Origin: a virus
Virus record (IMG/VR): IMGVR_UViG_3300034101_001509
Coordinates: 1 to 54,299 of that record
Length of the DNA: 54,299 nucleotides
Direction: 5' to 3' (one strand)
The number at the start of each line of letters is the position of its first letter. The first letter of the stretch is position 1. The notes under the pieces are model-generated. The model was not told where the DNA came from. It ran no database searches and was given only the letters and a program-made list of their open reading frames with translations. Shown one piece after another: positions 3,222 to 29,150 of this stretch. The position numbers and the translations under genes were made by a program.

Positions 3222-4044
3222 TGATTAATTCAAATAATTGATCATCAGCAGATTTTAGATCTTTAACACGATTAAAGTTATCTTCTACTGCTTTTATTTT
3301 ACTATGGTATAGATCAGGAGTCAATTGTTTCATATCAAATCCAGGATATAACTCTAAAATACCTTCTGGATTAAAAATTTCATTTATTGTTGGAGTACCC
3401 CAATATATTGGTATAGTTCCAGTAGCAAAGCAATCTGTAATTTTTTCAGTATAGTAAGTTGGATATTTATCATTTTCAATGACTATTTGAAACATGTAAT
3501 CATTCAATGCTTCTGATTTATCCCACGTAGTTTTACCAATACGTTTAGATCCAAGAGCACCACCATATAAATCAATAGTGCCTCTAAGTTGCTCTGCTAC
3601 TGTATGTCTCAGAGCATGACCAAACGAATATCGTTTTGGTGAAGCAACCATTGATACTAATTTTGTTTTATTAAAAACTGATTGTTCTTTTGCCCATGGA
3701 AGATTACTTCCTGCTGGACAGTATCTTACATTTGGATGCTTACCTACCCAATCCATCTCTGACGTAAATACCAAATCATAAGAATTGCATATCTTATCAA
3801 ATTCTTTTTCCCATATATCTCTGGGAAAACTCATAAAATGAAAAATAGCACGGGATTCGCATACCCATGCTATTTTACGTTCTCCTGGTTTTTTCTGATA
3901 TGTCATTCCCACAGGAATGGCAGAGTCAATGAATACTTTTACTGGAAAATCTTCAGTAGTCCAATCAAAATTTTTAGGTTTAAGATCAGAACACGATGAA
4001 TGTTCGATAAGAAAGGGAGCACCGATAGCTTGCATTTTCTTCAT
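3211..4044 (-). CDS. GT10-like (fucosyltransferase-type) glycosyltransferase
   Basis: 277 residues. The C-terminal half holds a strong GT10 signature: FQIVIENDKYPTYYTEKI (185-202), then DCFATGTIPIYWGTP (204-218), close to the alpha-1,3-fucosyltransferase consensus. It is shorter than bacterial FutA-type enzymes and lacks heptad repeats or an amphipathic tail, as is usual for phage members. It is the first gene of the modification cassette. A TATAAATA late-promoter element lies at 4062-4069 directly after the regA stop, and a GTGGAG ribosome site sits 8 bases before the ATG, so late expression is likely. The donor (GDP-fucose or another GDP-sugar) is inferred from family, not seen. Confidence 0.75.
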   Translation of the reverse strand: MKKMQAIGAPFLIEHSSCSDLKPKNFDWTTEDFPVKVFIDSAIPVGMTYQKKPGERKIAWVCESRAIFHFMSFPRDIWEKEFDKICNSYDLVFTSEMDWVGKHPNVRYCPAGSNLPWAKEQSVFNKTKLVSMVASPKRYSFGHALRHTVAEQLRGTIDLYGGALGSKRIGKTTWDKSEALNDYMFQIVIENDKYPTYYTEKITDCFATGTIPIYWGTPTINEIFNPEGILELYPGFDMKQLTPDLYHSKIKAVEDNFNRVKDLKSADDQLFELINEN

Positions 4045-4061
4045 AATATAAACTCCACATG

Positions 4062-4069
4062 TATTTATA
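4062..4069 (-). promoter_or_regulatory. T4-type late promoter for the glycosyltransferase cassette
   Basis: The minus strand reads TATAAATA exactly, immediately downstream of the regA stop codon. By T4 spacing the transcript would start near 4056 with GGAG, giving a leader of about 12 bases before the ATG at 4044. Position, exact consensus and ribosome-site placement all agree. Confidence 0.7.
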
Positions 4070-4468
4070 TTACTTTCCTATATGGTACTTAGGAATTAGA
4101 GTCCATTCTTTCTTTTCTTTATGTGGAATTATCTTAAGACGTGCTAGAGAAAGTTGTGGTTGAGCATACTTAATAGGATCTACCACATCAATCAATCCCC
4201 ACTCAACTAATAATTTGACGATGGTATTTCTTCTTCCCAAGTCGTCTTCAGACATATCTGAATCCAAACCATCAAGAACAAACATTTCCTTAAAATGCAT
4301 AATAGCATATCTACCTCTTTTGTGTAGTATGTGACACGATTGATATAACTTTTTATCATTCTTAGAAGAGACTCCAATACGAGTTAGAGTTTCTTTGACT
4401 TTCAAAAAGTCTTCTTCGTTTTTTAACTTTACTTCTACTCCCAATCCCTCAAAAATATCTTCTGTCAT
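4070..4468 (-). CDS. regA: RegA translational repressor
   Basis: 132 residues, slightly longer than T4 RegA (122). The core is highly recognisable: EEDFLKVKETLTRIG near residue 19, LYQSCHILHKRGRYAIMHFKEM near 42-63 and the terminal WTLIPKYHIGK, each matching T4 RegA closely. RegA binds AU-rich translation-initiation regions of many phage early mRNAs, including those for clamp and clamp loader, and blocks 30S binding. It lies directly after gene 62 as in T4. GGGAG stands 8 bases before the ATG and a TATAAATA element stands upstream, so part of its expression may be late. The ten-residue N-terminal extension (MTEDIFEGLG) is unlike T4. Confidence 0.95.
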   Translation of the reverse strand: MTEDIFEGLGVEVKLKNEEDFLKVKETLTRIGVSSKNDKKLYQSCHILHKRGRYAIMHFKEMFVLDGLDSDMSEDDLGRRNTIVKLLVEWGLIDVVDPIKYAQPQLSLARLKIIPHKEKKEWTLIPKYHIGK

Positions 4469-4493
4469 AATAAACTCCCATATTGACAGAAAA

Positions 4494-4501
4494 TATTTAT
4501 A
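4494..4501 (-). promoter_or_regulatory. T4-type late promoter upstream of regA
   Basis: Exact TATAAATA on the minus strand in the 36-base gap between gene 62 and regA. The predicted start near 4488 gives a leader of about 20 bases carrying GGGAG. In T4 regA is mainly early/middle, so a late element here would be a difference in timing. Confidence 0.6.
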
Positions 4502-6710: not shown

Positions 6711-7031
6711 TTACAATTCAACCCAAAACTGATTTGTTTCTTCTTTTACAAAAGTAAATAAAATACCAGTTGAAGGTTTATACCAACGATCTCCCTTATT
6801 TGTATTTATTGGGACTGTTTCTGAAATATAAAAAGATTGATCGTTTCCCAATAATTTCCAAACAAGATCACCATCCTTAGTATCAGGGACTTTGTTTGTT
6901 GTTGGTTTAACAGCAACATAATTTGCTCCATTCCAATCAACAACATCTCCTATTTTATACAAATAAGGATTTCCGTCAACATCATATTGACGATATTTGC
7001 CACGAAAATTTGCTTTATCTGTAACGTTCAT
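6711..7031 (-). CDS. Small protein with carbohydrate-binding-module-like motif
   Basis: 106 residues. The segment YKIGDVVDWNGANYVAVKPT (about 24-43) followed by PDTKDGDLVWKLLG (49-62) resembles the CBM5/12 (chitin-binding type 3) pattern of G-D-x-V with an aromatic, a Y-x-A strand and a later W-x-L-x-G. The C-terminal half repeats a similar rhythm (DRWYKPSTGILFTFV). Such modules are common in phage structural proteins. Its place between gene 46 and gene 45, inside the replication cluster, is odd. The ATG follows the gene 46 stop directly. It could be a virion decoration or a protein acting on host surface glycans; function is not established. Confidence 0.55.
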   Translation of the reverse strand: MNVTDKANFRGKYRQYDVDGNPYLYKIGDVVDWNGANYVAVKPTTNKVPDTKDGDLVWKLLGNDQSFYISETVPINTNKGDRWYKPSTGILFTFVKEETNQFWVEL

Positions 7032-9484: not shown

Positions 9485-10539
9485 ATAGTTAAACTTTCCA
9501 TATATAAATCTTTGATTAAAGTTTTTAACTTTACTTTATCAATATCTCTTTCAATAGCGTCAATTTCTCTGCCAATAATACTAATTGTATCTTCTGTTTC
9601 ACAAAAATCAACTGTGTTATTTTTTTCAAGATGATCTTCGACTACAGAAAGATCTTGAATACCCTTTCCCCATAAAGCATCGATAAATTTATCAAATACT
9701 TCTTGTTTATTTTTAATACGAATTGTAATGCGTACAAATCCACCCTTTAAATTTGTTTCATTTATAAATTTTGCAATACGTTTAATTTCATCCGCAGAAG
9801 AATCGTCATAAACAAAAATATGAAATATATTGTTATTATTTTGTATAAATTCCATTTCATCGGTTTTTGTGTCATAGACGTGGAATCCTTTTGTGGAATG
9901 AACATCAGAAAAATTCATTTGATATTGTGTTCCAAGATAATGAATATTTCCTTCAGATTGTTTGATATGAAAATGACCAGAGAGCACCCGATCAAATCTA
10001 GAGAATACAGATATGTTAAAACCTCCCTGATGTTTAACTCCAGGGATTACTTGAAACCCTACAATTTCGAAATGTCCACCAATCATTCTACATGAACAAT
10101 TTGTTATAAAGTTTAAAACTTCTTGTTCATTCTCTTTTGTCACCCAAGGTATTAAACCAAAACAAAAATCATCAAACTTTAAGGTTGTTGGATTTTCATA
10201 AATTTTAATCATTTTATACTTATCATCAATTAATTCTTTTAAAGAATTTAAATTATTTGTATTTTTGTAATAAGTATCATGATTTCCAATTGTTATGTGT
10301 AATTGGATTTGATTTTCTTCAAACTTTGATATTACCCTTTTTCTTACTTGAGATAGAGTATTAAAATTAATATATTTTCTTCTATCGAAAAAATCTCCTA
10401 AGTGAATAACATTTTTTATATTATTCTCTAAAAGAAAAGGAATAAATTGATTTTCAATAAAACTTATTGCGTTTTCTAAAAAGAAAGGAGAATCATTACG
10501 ACAACCAAAATGAGTATCACAAAGAAATGCTATTTTCAC
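9481..10539 (-). CDS. 47: gp47 recombination nuclease subunit (Mre11-like)
   Basis: 352 residues (T4 gp47 is 339). It has the calcineurin-like phosphoesterase motifs in order: CDTHFG (7-12, D8 and H10), HLGDFFDRR (46-54), GNHD (85-88) and later GGHFE and SGHFHI for the remaining metal-binding histidines. It provides the nuclease active site of the 46/47 complex. The start is a GTG that overlaps the gene 55 stop by four bases (GTGA); no upstream ATG fits better. The downstream neighbour is the SET gene rather than gene 46. Confidence 0.94.
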   Translation of the reverse strand: MKIAFLCDTHFGCRNDSPFFLENAISFIENQFIPFLLENNIKNVIHLGDFFDRRKYINFNTLSQVRKRVISKFEENQIQLHITIGNHDTYYKNTNNLNSLKELIDDKYKMIKIYENPTTLKFDDFCFGLIPWVTKENEQEVLNFITNCSCRMIGGHFEIVGFQVIPGVKHQGGFNISVFSRFDRVLSGHFHIKQSEGNIHYLGTQYQMNFSDVHSTKGFHVYDTKTDEMEFIQNNNNIFHIFVYDDSSADEIKRIAKFINETNLKGGFVRITIRIKNKQEVFDKFIDALWGKGIQDLSVVEDHLEKNNTVDFCETEDTISIIGREIDAIERDIDKVKLKTLIKDLYMESLTI

Positions 10540-11093
10540 TTACGCTTCCTTCTTTTTCTTTTTTTCTTTTTTGGTTCTAATTTATCAACATCAGTTTCCG
10601 TTAATGAAAAATGTTTTTGTAAAAATTCTGTATAAGTTCCAGCATCTGATTCTTTTTTTAACCACTCTATGAATTTTCCATCAACATCTTTCATTTGTAA
10701 ACACTTATATTTAATAAATGCTTGCTTTTTTTCTTTTTCTATTCTGCGTAAAAAAGCATAATAAATTATTTGAGTAAAATATGAAAATGGATTTGTTGAC
10801 TTATTTGGGTCAAAGTTATGAGCATATAGAATACAATTCTCTACACCATCCCCAATCATATCCTCTCGAAATGGATAATTTATAAAGTTTGGACGATGTG
10901 ATAAATGTTCAGCAATTTTTAAAAAAGATTCAGCAATATAATCAGTCACTGGTGGTTTCTTTTCACCACACTCTTCTGCTTCCTTTACTGTCTTTTTCCA
11001 TTCAATCATAGACTTACAAAATTTTTGATTATCGATGTAATGTCTTAAAGATTTTAATTCTTTTTCTATGATCTCATCATCTTCTTTTTTCAT
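10536..11093 (-). CDS. 55: gp55 late-transcription sigma factor
   Basis: 185 residues from the ATG at 11093, the same length as T4 gp55. A TTG frame reaching 11114 has no ribosome site, while GAGG lies 8 bases before the ATG. IAEHLSHRPNFINYPFREDMIGDGVENCI aligns with the T4 region LAEGLSKRFNFSGY...EMIADGIEASI, and HNFDPNKSTNPFSYFTQIIYYAFLRRIEKEKK with the T4 NFDETKYKNPHAYITQ segment: sigma-70 region 2-like helices. gp55 recruits host RNA polymerase to TATAAATA elements together with gp33 and the clamp. The lysine/arginine-rich tail (KKKKRKRRKRK) is unlike T4. A sigma70-type promoter precedes it. Confidence 0.93.
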   Translation of the reverse strand: MKKEDDEIIEKELKSLRHYIDNQKFCKSMIEWKKTVKEAEECGEKKPPVTDYIAESFLKIAEHLSHRPNFINYPFREDMIGDGVENCILYAHNFDPNKSTNPFSYFTQIIYYAFLRRIEKEKKQAFIKYKCLQMKDVDGKFIEWLKKESDAGTYTEFLQKHFSLTETDVDKLEPKKKKRKRRKRK

Positions 11094-11114
11094 ACAATTC
11101 CTCTTCTTTTCCAA

Positions 11115-13846: not shown

Positions 13847-14437
13847 TTAGGGAGTAGTTTCAAGTACTTCTATCTCATAATGAGTGTATGCGAATGTTGC
13901 TGTAGCAATTACTGGATCAGTATCAGCAGTAGAGGAATCGAATTCAATACTACTAATAAATGTTGGGTAGATATTTTTATATTTAATATTAATTATAGGT
14001 CTATATGAACTATTTAATACTAAAAGATATGCTGATGCCACTTTTTGATTTTCATTATATTTTTCTGTAGTTCCAGTATAAGAAAGACCAAGATCTTTAA
14101 TCCAATTATGAATTTCTAACCAATTTTTCATATTTTCATCAACAGCAAATCCAATTTGAAGATCCTCGTAAACATAAGAAGTTCCAGGTCTTCTTATTGA
14201 AATTCCTGTTGGATTTGATTGAATGGAAGTTCCAAAACTCAAAGATGGTATATTTGCTCGTTGACAAAAATATGTCATTGTTGGGCAGCGAGTCAAAATA
14301 AATCTAAATTTATTATTTGTTAAATTGTTATGAGTTGTTGGTTGAAAGAAATTTTCATATAGAATATCACCCGGAAGATCTCTGAGAATATTATCGGGAA
14401 TATTTTGAATGATTATTTGATCCAAGTTGTTTGGCAT
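13847..14437 (-). CDS. Tail-tube-fold protein (gp19/gp54-like paralogue)
   Basis: 196 residues. The layout matches the tube fold of T4 gp19 and gp54: an early strand KFRFILTRCPTMTYFCQRANIPSLSFG (43-69), SIRRPGTSYVYEDLQIGFAVDENMKNWLEIHNWIKDLG (80-117, the strand plus helix that contacts the next ring) and a terminal strand near ATATFAYTHYEI. It is distinct from the gp19 gene at 20.5-21.1 kb. It may be a tube initiator or terminator that caps the tube; which one cannot be told from the sequence. A TATAAATA element ends five bases before the ATG and there is no ribosome site between them. Confidence 0.65.
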   Translation of the reverse strand: MPNNLDQIIIQNIPDNILRDLPGDILYENFFQPTTHNNLTNNKFRFILTRCPTMTYFCQRANIPSLSFGTSIQSNPTGISIRRPGTSYVYEDLQIGFAVDENMKNWLEIHNWIKDLGLSYTGTTEKYNENQKVASAYLLVLNSSYRPIINIKYKNIYPTFISSIEFDSSTADTDPVIATATFAYTHYEIEVLETTP

Positions 14438-14442
14438 ATTAG

Positions 14443-14450
14443 TATTTATA
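14443..14450 (-). promoter_or_regulatory. T4-type late promoter, start codon at predicted +1
   Basis: Exact TATAAATA on the minus strand, directly after the terminator of gene 23. Five bases (CTAAT) separate it from the ATG at 14437, so with T4 spacing the transcript would begin at the A of the start codon. Confidence 0.6.
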
Positions 14451-14480
14451 AAGAAAAACCCCTGGGTTTCCCCAGGGGTT
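14450..14480 (-). terminator. Intrinsic terminator after gene 23
   Basis: On the minus strand AACCCCTGGG and CCCAGGGGTT form a perfect 10-base stem (14480-14471 and 14466-14457) closed by a GAAA tetraloop. The run TTTTCTTT follows. It stands 28 bases after the major capsid stop and would end the very abundant gene 23 transcript. Confidence 0.9.
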
Positions 14481-24556: not shown

Positions 24557-25305
24557 GGCCAATCTCCTACGACTGGAGTGGTAGAACCTGTAATGTAATC
24601 TCCAGTATATCCAATATCACCAACATAATAATCGACTGCGGTAGATCCTGGATCGGCAAAGAAATTGACATCTGTTCTTTCTATTAGTCCACCTGTTCCA
24701 CCACATATCTTTGGATAAATGTACGTCTTTGCCGTAAAATCAAAAGTACTAATAAGTGCTCTACGATTTTCAAAAGTTCCTTCATAATCCTCGTTTAAAG
24801 AAACATTGTTTAATACAAAAGGAATATCCACAGAATCATGAATATCATTCATTTTTATTGTCACTGTATAATCTGGAGCAAAAAATGGAACAATCTGTTC
24901 AATTATTTGTAACATATCGTCCATATTTCTAGTAAATGCGAATAGAGAAAAATTAATATTATATGGAACTTCTGCGTATACTTTTTTGAGAACTCCGTTT
25001 ACAACTTCTGCTCTTTGCGTTGTTCTATTCAATTTTCTTGCGGGATCATACATCAATGTTGATATTTCAAATCCAAGTTTTGGAAGAACAATTTGTACTC
25101 TACTATTTTTAGATAAACTGCTTTCTTGAGTAAGTCTCCATATAAATTTTTCTTTACTGCCATAACTTAAAGGTACTCTAATTTTTTCAATTTCAGTGCC
25201 ATCTTCTTCAAATCGTGTGACATATATTGATTCAAATAATGAACCAAATGCTATAACTATTTTTCTTATTGATTCATTATAAAAATATTGACTAACTGTA
25301 AACAT
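24553..25305 (-). CDS. 15: gp15 tail terminator / sheath stabiliser
   Basis: 250 residues from the ATG at 25305 (T4 gp15 is 272); a GTG at 25314 would extend it by three residues. Strong similarity in pattern to T4: YFYNESIRKIVIAFGSLFESIYVTR at the start, IRVPLSYGSKEKFIWRL (42-58), VQIVLPKLGFEISTLMYDPARKLN and FAFTRNMDDMLQIIEQIVPFFAPDYTVTI (about 128-156, T4 IFTRYEDDMFQIVEQILPYFQPHF). It closes the top of the tail tube and sheath and docks to the neck. The TAATG overlap with gene 14 indicates coupled translation. Confidence 0.95.
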   Translation of the reverse strand: MFTVSQYFYNESIRKIVIAFGSLFESIYVTRFEEDGTEIEKIRVPLSYGSKEKFIWRLTQESSLSKNSRVQIVLPKLGFEISTLMYDPARKLNRTTQRAEVVNGVLKKVYAEVPYNINFSLFAFTRNMDDMLQIIEQIVPFFAPDYTVTIKMNDIHDSVDIPFVLNNVSLNEDYEGTFENRRALISTFDFTAKTYIYPKICGGTGGLIERTDVNFFADPGSTAVDYYVGDIGYTGDYITGSTTPVVGDWP

Positions 25306-26228
25306 TAAGAGCACTCCTCGGAAAATGGATTATCTCTACTAAAGTTTAGAGTATTATCAGCTTCCTCGGCATATATATCATTTTCAATTTCATCAACACC
25401 AGAAATAGGATCAATTGAAAGATTGACATTTGTTTCATCAACATCTAATAGATAATATTCTACTCCATTAATCTTATTTTTGACAGATTGTGTTCCAGAA
25501 GATCCTGCCACAAATTGTCCGCTTACACCTTTAATATAAGTTGTATTTCCTGTATATTCTATAACAGTTCCTTCAGCGGTAGCGTTTGCGTATACTGCTG
25601 TAGCACCAGTAACGCCATTTACTTGAAACACAACATCACCTCGTTTGAGTGTTGCCGAACCGGAAACGGGAGAACTAGAAAGAGTAAATGTATACATGTT
25701 GTATTTTCTCTTTTCCTCGACATCATCAATTTCAGTAACTCCGGTTTCAATTTTCTCAAATGAATATGTAAAGAGTTCACATGTTAATGTGTAAATGTTT
25801 AATGTTCCAAATTGGAAAAATGGAATTTTATCTTCAACATAATTTATTTCAAATATACTTTTATTAAATGGAAAATATATTAAATCACCTTCTCTTGGTG
25901 TTCTAATTGTAGAATCTTTTGAATATATTTCTTTTTCAAATCTTGTTTTTGATACCTGAAGTGTAACTCTATCTGTAATATTAATTCCAAATTTATTAAT
26001 GATATTCATTTGTCCACCAAAGGCTGTAACATTTTGAATATACATTTCTATGGTGTAAGCATTTTTAAATTGAGATATAGGATCTTCTCCAAAAATTAAA
26101 TCACGATTCAAATACTCACGTGGAATATAAATCATGTCTCTACCCATCGCCTTGATTGTTTCTACAGTCAAGTCGTCAAGTAAAGTTTGTTCTCCAACGT
26201 ATTCTTTGAAATATGGATTTGTTGCCAT
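25305..26228 (-). CDS. 14: gp14 neck protein
   Basis: 307 residues (T4 gp14 is 256). [33 protein letters not shown] (34-66) aligns with T4 [31 protein letters not shown], and [30 protein letters not shown] with T4 [30 protein letters not shown]. An added beta-rich stretch of about 70 residues (roughly 180-255, Ser/Thr/Val-rich) accounts for the extra length and could be a surface decoration. It connects head portal to tail with gp13. Confidence 0.93.
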   Translation of the reverse strand: [307 protein letters not shown]

Positions 26229-26231
26229 TTG

Positions 26232-27032
26232 TTATCCCATTATAAAATCTACTGGGAGTTCATGTGTTAAGTAGAATTCTTGTTCTATTGCTGCTATTTC
26301 TGCCATAGCATCCTGAAATATTTGTTGTCCCTTAAATGTAATTCCACCTGGAAGTTGTACACCGTCATACTTTAACATATTTGATCCCCATTGTCTTTTG
26401 ATCAAAGCAGTTAGATATTTTTTCAAAAGACGATCATTATAAATTTCTGTATATTTGTCAGGATCTAATATTGCGTATGATTCTATTACAACATATTGAT
26501 TTGCTGTTATGTCTCCAGCAAGAGCATCAAGATAAATTTTATTTGTTACTTTGCTAAATCTAATTGATTTTTCCGGACTAAAAAATTGTTCAAGTAAACT
26601 AATATACGACATAGTTACATGATAACCAGCAAGTGGAGTTGATTGACTTCCGTTTAATCCTCTATTGATTCCAAAGTAATCTGTTAATGCTAATTGATAA
26701 CGAATATCAAACATATTTACACCAGATAAAGTTCCAAATCTAAAAACTTTAACAACAGAAAGAATATCAGTTCCTGTTGGACCATTTGGATCACCGGAAG
26801 GTGTTTGTATATCTTCAATTTCAATAAATCCACGATCTATATCAGTTTGTGTCATCTGATATTTAAAATATACTTTTTGAACACCATCAAAATGTCTTTC
26901 TTGAAAAAATTGTAGTGCTTCGTCAAGACGATCTTCGCATTGTTGGTGATCTACGTTTATTTGAATAACAGGATGTCCCAATGTACGAAGACAATGTTCT
27001 ATTAGTGTTTGTCTTGAGTCTGGTACTGCCAT
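26232..27032 (-). CDS. 13: gp13 neck protein
   Basis: 266 residues (T4 gp13 is 309). Recognisable from LIEHCLRTLGHPVIQINVDHQQCEDRLDEALQFFQERHFDG near the start (10-50) and the central YISLLEQFFSPEKSIRFSKVTNKIYLD (around 150-176). It joins the portal after packaging as part of the head-completion complex. The start region is unusual: the AAGGAG ribosome site, 9 bases before the ATG, is one arm of a 12-base hairpin whose loop and distal arm contain a TATAAATA late promoter. The next gene upstream is a Cys-rich protein rather than gp12 or wac. Confidence 0.93.
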   Translation of the reverse strand: MAVPDSRQTLIEHCLRTLGHPVIQINVDHQQCEDRLDEALQFFQERHFDGVQKVYFKYQMTQTDIDRGFIEIEDIQTPSGDPNGPTGTDILSVVKVFRFGTLSGVNMFDIRYQLALTDYFGINRGLNGSQSTPLAGYHVTMSYISLLEQFFSPEKSIRFSKVTNKIYLDALAGDITANQYVVIESYAILDPDKYTEIYNDRLLKKYLTALIKRQWGSNMLKYDGVQLPGGITFKGQQIFQDAMAEIAAIEQEFYLTHELPVDFIMG

Positions 27033-27037
27033 AGAAA

Positions 27038-27068
27038 AACTCTCCTTATTTTATTTATAAGGAGAGTT
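27038..27068 (-). promoter_or_regulatory. Hairpin that hides the gp13 ribosome site, with internal late promoter
   Basis: On the minus strand AACTCTCCTTAT (27068-27057) and ATAAGGAGAGTT (27049-27038) form a perfect 12-base stem with a 7-base loop, followed by a T run. The second arm contains AAGGAG for gene 13. TATAAATA (27059-27052) spans the end of the first arm and the loop. Read-through RNA would fold and hide the ribosome site and may terminate. RNA from the late promoter would start near 27046, lack the first arm and keep the site open. T4 gene e has this logic. Confidence 0.75.
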
Positions 27069-27075
27069 CTTTTAA

Positions 27076-27636
27076 TTATTTAGGTTCTTCTGCTGGTTTT
27101 TGTTGTATTGGTGGTTCGTGTGTTTTTACTGGAACCTTTTCAATTTCTTTATATGGTAATTGTTCAATATAATATCTTCTGGTAATTGGAGCATTCGCCT
27201 CATCTGGTTTAGATTTTTCGTAGTTTGAAAACCCTGGCATTTGAAGTGGACATGAGAGTCGAGGATAATCTAATTTGCTATATTCTTCATCCTGTGCTAA
27301 TAGCCATGTTCCTTTTCTATCGCCACATCCACAACCACCACAGAAGAATTTACCAGGAGTTGAACTTTGCTTTAAATATTCACATGGCGGCAAAACACCA
27401 CCCTGTTCTTTGTTTCCAAAGCAAGATACTACTCTAAGTTGTTTCATTGGAATTGTAACTTTTTCATTACCAAATCCACGGGAAGCAATTGCTGATGCGA
27501 AACTTTGCATCATAGTCAATTTTTCTTTGACTGCTCCCTCTTTTTTGATTTCTTCTTTTCTAAATTCAGGTTGAGTTGTTTGAGTTGTTTCTTCTGATTT
27601 ATTTTGATTATTTTTATTTTTACAATTACATCCCAT
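27076..27636 (-). CDS. Cys-rich hypothetical protein
   Basis: 186 residues from the ATG at 27636, chosen because ATGGAG stands 8 bases before it; an ATG at 27648 would add four residues and overlap the previous stop. It opens with MGCNCKNKNNQ and has a middle segment FFCGGCGCGDRKGTW with CPP/CPL cysteines around it, a pattern suited to binding one or two zinc ions. The C-terminus is Pro/Glu/Lys-rich (HEPPIQQKPAEEPK). No membrane segment is seen. It sits between the fibre cluster and the neck genes. No family is recognised; a small virion or assembly protein is possible. Confidence 0.5.
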   Translation of the reverse strand: MGCNCKNKNNQNKSEETTQTTQPEFRKEEIKKEGAVKEKLTMMQSFASAIASRGFGNEKVTIPMKQLRVVSCFGNKEQGGVLPPCEYLKQSSTPGKFFCGGCGCGDRKGTWLLAQDEEYSKLDYPRLSCPLQMPGFSNYEKSKPDEANAPITRRYYIEQLPYKEIEKVPVKTHEPPIQQKPAEEPK

Positions 27637-27647
27637 ATAGATCTCCA

Positions 27648-29150
27648 TTAGTATAGAATAATACGTCTAAAGAATAAAGCAGTTTCAACGTTTCTTTTAT
27701 TTATAAGAACAGTTCGATAATTTATAGGAATTATATTTGAAAAAGATTGTCCATAAACAAAAGATTTATTATTTAATTTACTACGATTTGTTTTTGAATT
27801 TAAATATTTTGTATTAAAAATACTAGACGAAATAACGTTAGCATATAGTTCAACATTATTTTCGAAAAGATATTGAGCATAGAAATTTAATTCATAAATT
27901 GAGGGAAGATAATAATCTATGAATCCATTTCTAGGTGTATTTTTAATTGTATTTGTAAGTGCTGTACTAAGTCCAATAAAATTATCAGCATTACCATAAG
28001 TATTATAATAACCATCCCACAAGGATGTTTTATAATCTACATCTAATTCATTTTCTAACAAAAATGGAACTGTATATTTTGTGGTATCGACAATTAATGC
28101 CCATTGACTATGTGTTCCTCCCTCGGGAGTGCCAACAAACCTAGAAGAATTTGGAGTTCCAAAATTTAAACTTCCGCGAATAACACTACTCTTTCCATTA
28201 TTTGGAGAAGGTTTGAATATTCCTATATAAATTCCACCTTGATATTCATCACCAACATTCAATTCTAAATCTTCAAAGGAAGATAAAGACATTTGTTGTG
28301 GTTGATATTTATTATTAATTTTTAATGGATTTGTTGGTTTTAATGAAGAGTTACAATATGGGTCGTCTGAATCTTGTTCTGGAACCCAATATCCATTACA
28401 TATTTCTCTGGGTGATATAGTACATGTATATTCATATGTACCATCAACAAGTTCTAATGTATAGCAAGATCCCATTTCAAAGCCTTGATATAGATTTGTG
28501 GACAATGCCATTCTAGTAACATATTCACTTGAGGCACATGTTATTGGAGATTGTCCAGCAATTAATGGTGGATTTCCACATCTACTATTTTCTGTAAAAA
28601 CAGAAGGATATACATCTGTAGATAAAGCAGCACAATCTGCTGATGTACAAACATCTTCACATTTTACATTTGTTGGCCAACCAGTATCTTCATCAAACTC
28701 TAAGTGACAACATGCTCTGGGTGCTCGAATATCTTGATCGTTTGAAACACAATAAGTTTCCCAATTACCATTTGCTAATTCTGGACAACTTCCTTCTGTC
28801 CACTTTCCACCAATTCTATTACATTCGCATTTTGTAACATTACTTCTTGTTCCCGATGTCAAATATGGATTTGACATTCCTTGAGAATATGTTGGTATTT
28901 GATTTAATTCTCCAGAAGTAACATATGAACATGAACAACAACAACCTCTTCTAGTATCTACATCTGGACATACTACAGAATTAGTATCTTCCCCTTTTGT
29001 TGGTACAAAATGACCACCTTCATTAAAGCACTCTATAAATGATTTTGAACTTCCAGTTCCTCCAGTTATACCACAACATACTCCATAAGCATTTAATAAC
29101 TTTGAGTAATCTATTGCTGGTTTAATTCTGGAACGAAATTGTAGTGTCAT
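27648..29150 (-). CDS. Cys-rich adhesin-like protein with lectin-like C-terminus
   Basis: 500 residues. Residues ~20-290 are packed with cysteines, including CC pairs in GVCCGITGGTG, RGCCCSCS and RACCHLEFDE, and look like divergent copies of the modules in the three larger neighbours. The C-terminal part has GDEYQGGIYIGIF (about 300-312) and YYLPSIYELNFYAQYL (about 411-426), the two landmarks of DUF1566/Lcl_C lectin-like domains. Unlike the neighbours it has no collagen-like repeat. It overlaps the 29.1-32.1 kb gene by four bases. It is likely a virion surface or fibre-tip protein for receptor binding; that role is inferred. Confidence 0.6.
   Translation of the reverse strand: MTLQFRSRIKPAIDYSKLLNAYGVCCGITGGTGSSKSFIECFNEGGHFVPTKGEDTNSVVCPDVDTRRGCCCSCSYVTSGELNQIPTYSQGMSNPYLTSGTRSNVTKCECNRIGGKWTEGSCPELANGNWETYCVSNDQDIRAPRACCHLEFDEDTGWPTNVKCEDVCTSADCAALSTDVYPSVFTENSRCGNPPLIAGQSPITCASSEYVTRMALSTNLYQGFEMGSCYTLELVDGTYEYTCTISPREICNGYWVPEQDSDDPYCNSSLKPTNPLKINNKYQPQQMSLSSFEDLELNVGDEYQGGIYIGIFKPSPNNGKSSVIRGSLNFGTPNSSRFVGTPEGGTHSQWALIVDTTKYTVPFLLENELDVDYKTSLWDGYYNTYGNADNFIGLSTALTNTIKNTPRNGFIDYYLPSIYELNFYAQYLFENNVELYANVISSSIFNTKYLNSKTNRSKLNNKSFVYGQSFSNIIPINYRTVLINKRNVETALFFRRIILY
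27698..27705 (-). promoter_or_regulatory. Possible late promoter inside the 3' end of the Cys-rich adhesin gene
   Basis: Exact TATAAATA on the minus strand, 62 bases before the ATG at 27636. It could drive the small Cys-rich gene, but it lies in coding sequence and the leader would be longer (~55 bases) than at the other sites. Confidence 0.3.

Follow-up and report, generated by a model that had tools for sequence, protein, structure and literature searches.

The window, the whole stretch of 54,299 nt analysed here, belongs to a T4-like virus of bacteria whose main genes, replication genes included, all lie on the minus strand. We looked for a close named phage to the window DNA and found none; among named phages the nearest gp13 is about 43 % identical, and a contig search for a hint of the host gave matches of only 37-38 %. 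The gene downstream of the leader studied here had been named gp13 in a preliminary description of this DNA, an identification borne out by its match to phrog_211 and by about 40 % identity to annotated gp13. It opens a neck operon with gp14 as the next gene, and beyond these lie genes for a gp15-like sheath stabiliser, terminase, sheath and portal (Table 1). The genes directly upstream of gp13 are tail-fibre-like, and baseplate genes also lie upstream. Towards the end of the window gp55, the sliding clamp, the clamp loader and RegA are all encoded.

Table 1 The gp13 leader and the genes that bear on it (positions in the window)
Feature	Position	Strand	Basis or remark
190-aa ORF upstream of gp13, putative source of read-through RNA	27076..27648	-	stop codon 11 nt from CTCC core
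5' (upstream) arm, core CTCTCCTTAT	27057..27071	-	fold, conservation, compensatory changes; predicted absent from RNA of the embedded promoter
Putative late promoter element TATAAATA, sharing 3 nt with the 5' arm and running into the loop	27052..27059	-	-13 to -6 rule (PMC1524935)
Loop, 7 nt, AAATAAA	27050..27056	-	sequence, fold
3' arm ATAAGGAGAGTTTTT, bearing the ribosome site	27035..27049	-	sequence, fold
Predicted +1 of late RNA (5'-AGGAGAGUUUUUCUAUG), 14-nt leader	27046	-	T4 rule and leader-length-0 peak elsewhere
Shine-Dalgarno sequence AAGGAG	27042..27047	-	predicted paired in read-through RNA (probability 0.99-1.0)
U-run past GC-rich stem base; may act as terminator tract or lengthen the helix	27035..27039	-	
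gp13, neck protein (head-tail adaptor Ad2), gene putatively controlled by the leader	26232..27032	-	phrog_211, E 8e-37
gp14 neck protein, next gene of the operon, 3 nt past gp13	25305..26228	-	PF11649, E 9e-38
gp55-like late sigma factor, expected reader of the promoter	10536..11114	-	phrog_234, E 7e-58

Between the stop codon of the 190-aa ORF (27076) and gp13, the minus strand reads ...TAA TTAAAAG AACTCTCCTTAT AAATAAA ATAAGGAGAGTT TTTCT ATGGCAGTA. We confirm the perfect 12-bp stem over AAGGAG that had been noticed there, with 27057-27068 pairing with 27038-27049. In the predicted fold the A/U flank lengthens the stem to 15 pairs, and the best structure also has the bases of the U-run (27039-27035, after GAGAG) paired, their partner being the A-tract upstream. 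The fold energy is -19.4 kcal/mol compared to -8.6 +/- 2.25 for shuffled sequences (z -4.8, with 0 of 200 shuffles as good), and in the list of inverted repeats with short loops for the 54-kb window the hairpin comes second. A search of Rfam returned no match.

The late promoter element TATAAATA overlaps the first arm and the loop (27059-27052), again as first described. This octamer is found seven times in the window, always on the coding strand, while dinucleotide shuffles would give 10.3 copies, so that the octamer alone is not significant. It is its position that is significant: among the seven copies only the one at gp13 is placed in a strong hairpin over a ribosome site. Taken with a phage-encoded gp55-type sigma factor and sliding clamp, TATAAATA can be assigned from sequence as a putative T4-type late promoter, whose use, start site and strength we infer from T4. 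In T4 the late element occupies positions -13 to -6 (PMC1524935). That spacing rule is independently supported in these phages because start codons peak exactly 13 nt past the first base of the octamer, corresponding to a leader length of 0 (19 distinct cases in 6 families). Neighbouring leader lengths from -1 to +3 have 2 to 5 cases, and other AT-rich heptamers have 0 to 2 cases at leader length 0.

Since the T4 rule puts the start at 27046, the late RNA would lack the 5' arm. Freeing the ribosome site is predicted to take 16.9 kcal/mol in the read-through RNA and 1.6 kcal/mol in the late RNA from 27046. The drop from about 17 to about 2 kcal/mol agrees with the earlier proposal that RNA from the late promoter loses the first arm and exposes the site. 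Shuffling of the 25 nt ahead of the promoter gives a mean cost of 2.9 kcal/mol, and shifting the start site by -8 to +4 leaves the cost for the late RNA at 1.3-2.0 kcal/mol. In a direct comparison by one measure the positive control, T4 gene e, goes from 13.4 to 3.4 kcal/mol and the window leader from 17.8 to 1.7 kcal/mol.

To follow this hairpin in related viruses, we collected 80 gp13 relatives from IMG/VR and then added a Pelagibacter-phage query and a pattern scan; the leader set comprised 139 non-redundant leaders with a promoter, and a maximum-likelihood tree was built from 69 gp13 proteins. The arrangement, hereafter the lock, is found in 35 of 35 leaders of one gp13 clade (support 100/99) in which protein identity to the gp13 of the window goes down to 52 %. 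The five central pairs (pairs 0-4, GGAG plus the next base) are paired in all 35. Paired changes in relatives had been proposed as a check on the hairpin, and six compensatory double Watson-Crick replacements, within and outside the five central pairs, do map on the tree: U-A to A-U, U-A to G-C, A-U to C-G, C-G to U-A twice, and C-G to A-U. The arm facing the ribosome site has three changes, all C to U, which keep a G-U pair. In an independent count of 17 leaders 96 % of the cells are paired (0 of 500 shuffles as high), double changes are found in 10 cells where 2.7 would be expected, and none of 500 shuffles and no slid register reaches the covariation score. We give more weight to the tree-mapped changes because shuffles ignore relatedness. 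Pairing, and not only sequence, is thus conserved in the clade.

One explanation for such symmetry is that a repressor or activator binds the palindrome in the DNA, and a perfect inverted repeat does overlap the promoter. The retained G-U pairs favour an RNA stem over a DNA operator, which would need Watson-Crick symmetry at those positions; in addition the 3' arm is always the ribosome site and the loop varies in length. We therefore consider a DNA operator highly improbable. Chance pairing of a promoter with a nearby ribosome site does produce weak stems of this kind in the Pelagibacter-phage group, but for the clade it is refuted by the shuffle tests, the 35/35 conservation and the compensatory changes, leaving its probability next to nil.

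In most sister groups gp13 is likewise preceded by a promoter of this kind, with the hairpin absent. The sister group with CCATAAATA promoters has no lock and the Pelagibacter-phage group has mostly the promoter alone, providing a comparative set of sister phages with the promoter and without the lock. The lock label on the gp13 tree needs at least 6 changes on starred branches. Hairpins with arms unrelated to those of the window are found at L077-L079 (CCTCCTATGTTCTTA...TAAGAACATAGGAGG around TATACATA), L074/L075 and L245, suggesting repeated invention of the design. Upstream of gp13 in L077-L079 it is AGGAGG that the 15-16-bp stem around TATACATA hides, and the design seems to have arisen there independently. 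Pelagibacter phage Mosig (TTATTCTT/AAGGAATAA) looked promising by eye and was rejected, its pairing being not above shuffles (p 0.58).

The T run after the stem had been read as a sign that the fibre transcript terminates here. The T run itself is present (27039-27035), whereas termination is only plausible: at least four U directly follow the stem in 25 of the 35 clade members and one further member is U-rich, but nine members (L036, L049, L209 subclade) have no U-run. Termination is thus possible without being the general function, and it is not what the clade conserves, since these nine keep the stem on the ribosome site; the L036, L049, L209 subclade carries the compensatory U-A to G-C change. 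Termination may have been added in the subclade of the window. Between the upstream stop codon and the core there are 8-33 nt, mostly 9-11 and never fewer than 8, a spacing that suits either a terminator or a lock safe from melting by the terminating ribosome. At such distances the core is roughly outside a ribosome that terminates there, which speaks for the lock; on the other hand, such a ribosome could still loosen the outer stem.

Alternatively the hairpin may mainly serve to terminate the tail-fibre operon intrinsically, its loop housing the late promoter of the following operon and the hiding of the ribosome site being a by-product of this fusion. Such an origin would account for the GC-rich stem base followed by a U-run in the 25 members, and it has parallels: these phages have a strong terminator just ahead of the tail-tube late promoter (14437), L206 and L202 have a promoter in a hairpin with a U-run away from any ribosome site, and the L100-type hairpins end in TTTTTT. 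As the tail-tube gene illustrates, however, a pure terminator can exclude the ribosome site, and the nine members mentioned above have lost the U-run and kept the stem on it. Termination and hiding of the ribosome site can also coexist. We consider a primary terminator quite improbable. In L206 and L202 a second TATAAATA is found next to the start codon after the hairpin, making these loci terminator-promoter chimeras.

We consider it likely that the gp13 leader is a translational lock of the T4 gene e type with its own late promoter as the key. Read-through RNA from the upstream tail-fibre operon would fold the stem and bury the ribosome site of gp13. Transcripts initiated at the TATAAATA of the hairpin would start at the ribosome site or beside it, lack the 5' arm and be translated. 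Because the read-through RNA would be locked, gp13, and probably the closely spaced gp14 too, would be made only from the local late promoter, whatever reads in from upstream. Both the translational block on read-through RNA and the purpose of the lock are what we infer from this arrangement; the lock may serve to insulate gp13 from the late operon next to it, from earlier read-through, or from both.

The preliminary description called the element a timing switch, which is not supported as stated, the genes directly upstream being tail-fibre-like and late. As these genes are late, the visible read-through RNA is itself late, and the rationale known from T4, that no early product is made, is not transferable. 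A true early/late switch as in T4 gene e would require the locked RNA to be early or middle read-through. The anatomy and the energies are the same as in T4 e, PMC3014915 describes the same RNA design for T4 e, soc, 49 and I-TevI, and the main genes of the window, replication genes included, all run in one direction. However, genes for baseplate and tail fibres, with late promoters, occupy the 27 kb upstream, and no early gene upstream of gp13 was seen within the window. Early read-through could still occur given that the window ends at 54 kb, and we regard the early/late switch as rather unlikely. Since the RNA reading in is late, insulation of the neck operon from tail-fibre RNA is as likely as timing, and the visible gene order fits it better.

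The T4 gene e leader is an experimentally documented lock (PMC3014915), and its logic, invoked in the preliminary description, is supported here by the anatomy, the embedded late promoter and the alike opening energies. In both cases a late promoter TATAAATA lies in the hairpin, the long RNA hides the ribosome site and the late RNA is without the 5' arm, for the window by prediction. T4 gene e is a lysis gene (lysozyme) reached by early RNA and served by two late promoters, while gp13 is a neck gene behind late tail-fibre genes with one promoter, the ribosome site at the very 5' end of the late RNA and a U-run past the stem. Long transcripts of T4 soc, 49, I-TevI/II/III, segB and Aeh1 mobE also sequester the ribosome site or the start codon (PMC3014915, PMC2988022); for homing endonucleases a late promoter directly upstream yields RNA that escapes the structure. 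Those are late genes in early or middle transcription units, many of them homing endonucleases, and gp13 is not mentioned in the passages of these reviews that were consulted. The leader stem of T4 gene 25, which about 30 T-even relatives share (PMC3014915), resembles the one at gp13 in its conservation and in its place where translation of a virion gene begins; the gene is a different one. The orthologous T4 gene 13 has a GGGGCCGCAAGGCCCC hairpin just before its ribosome site; unlike in the window, there is no promoter inside and the ribosome site lies outside.

We found no description of a gp13 lock in the open literature on marine T4-like phages and late promoters; a mention elsewhere is conceivable. 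The T4 device itself is known and has been described for lysis, accessory and homing-endonuclease genes on early RNA. Here the lock guards the first gene of the neck operon in a diverse uncultured clade and is kept by compensatory evolution. Because it faces late RNA, it raises the question of why translation of a virion gene should depend on its own promoter alone.

Across the window and three related genomes (G001, G002 and G004), TATAAATA promoters before start codons show no comparable gap between read-through and late RNA except at gp13 (locus L014 in G001). The closest other site is the window gene at 4044, with 5.6 vs 0.2 kcal/mol; there (4044-4076, minus strand; TATAAATACATGTGGAGTTTATATTATG) the promoter is in the 5' arm and the ribosome site in the loop, a weaker layout resembling T4 e. 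Among the matches listed, other T4-like contigs have the same design at a gp5-like hub gene and a gp25-like gene (names assigned by eye from sequence) and at two genes of 110 aa and 138 aa, the latter with a cysteine-rich motif. The pattern scan selects pairing by construction and therefore speaks for recurrence of the design only, not for its frequency. The 138-aa gene, at L127, has its late promoter inside a hairpin over the ribosome site upstream; it may be a nuclease, with a leader similar to the T4 mob/I-Tev leaders. At regA (4453-4498, minus strand), encoding a RegA-like translational repressor (phrog_242), a 15-nt inverted repeat (93 %) lets the region of the start codon pair with the end of a TATAAATA element, a possible lock or autoregulatory site.

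More broadly, we hypothesize that translation is set by where an RNA is born, although we hold this to be doubtful. Late promoters at operon borders would make only their own RNA translatable, by the lock over the ribosome site at gp13 in the 35-member clade, or, in sister clades and for the tail-tube gene, by start codons placed exactly at +1 and hence leaderless. If true, this would insulate neighbouring late operons and fix the dosage of neck proteins, and the T4 lock would be in use beyond early/late timing.

At the tail-tube gene (14437-14470, minus strand) a strong terminator hairpin is directly followed by TATAAATA, the start codon is exactly at the predicted +1 and a ribosome site is absent; the late mRNA is probably leaderless. 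The same layout is found in L313, L337, L092 and L083, and in L321 with a 1-nt leader, and the MPNN... protein start is kept in related genomes. The lengths of late-promoter leaders are two-peaked, at 10-20 nt with a ribosome site or at exactly 0. Zero-length leaders are found at gp13 (L244, L254, L256, L232, L295, L296, L305), at a gene of about 150 aa (L031, L035, L045), in L122 and L163 (a gene of 1.6-1.7k aa) and at 7031 of the window, and leaderless late mRNAs seem to be recurrent in these T4-like phages.
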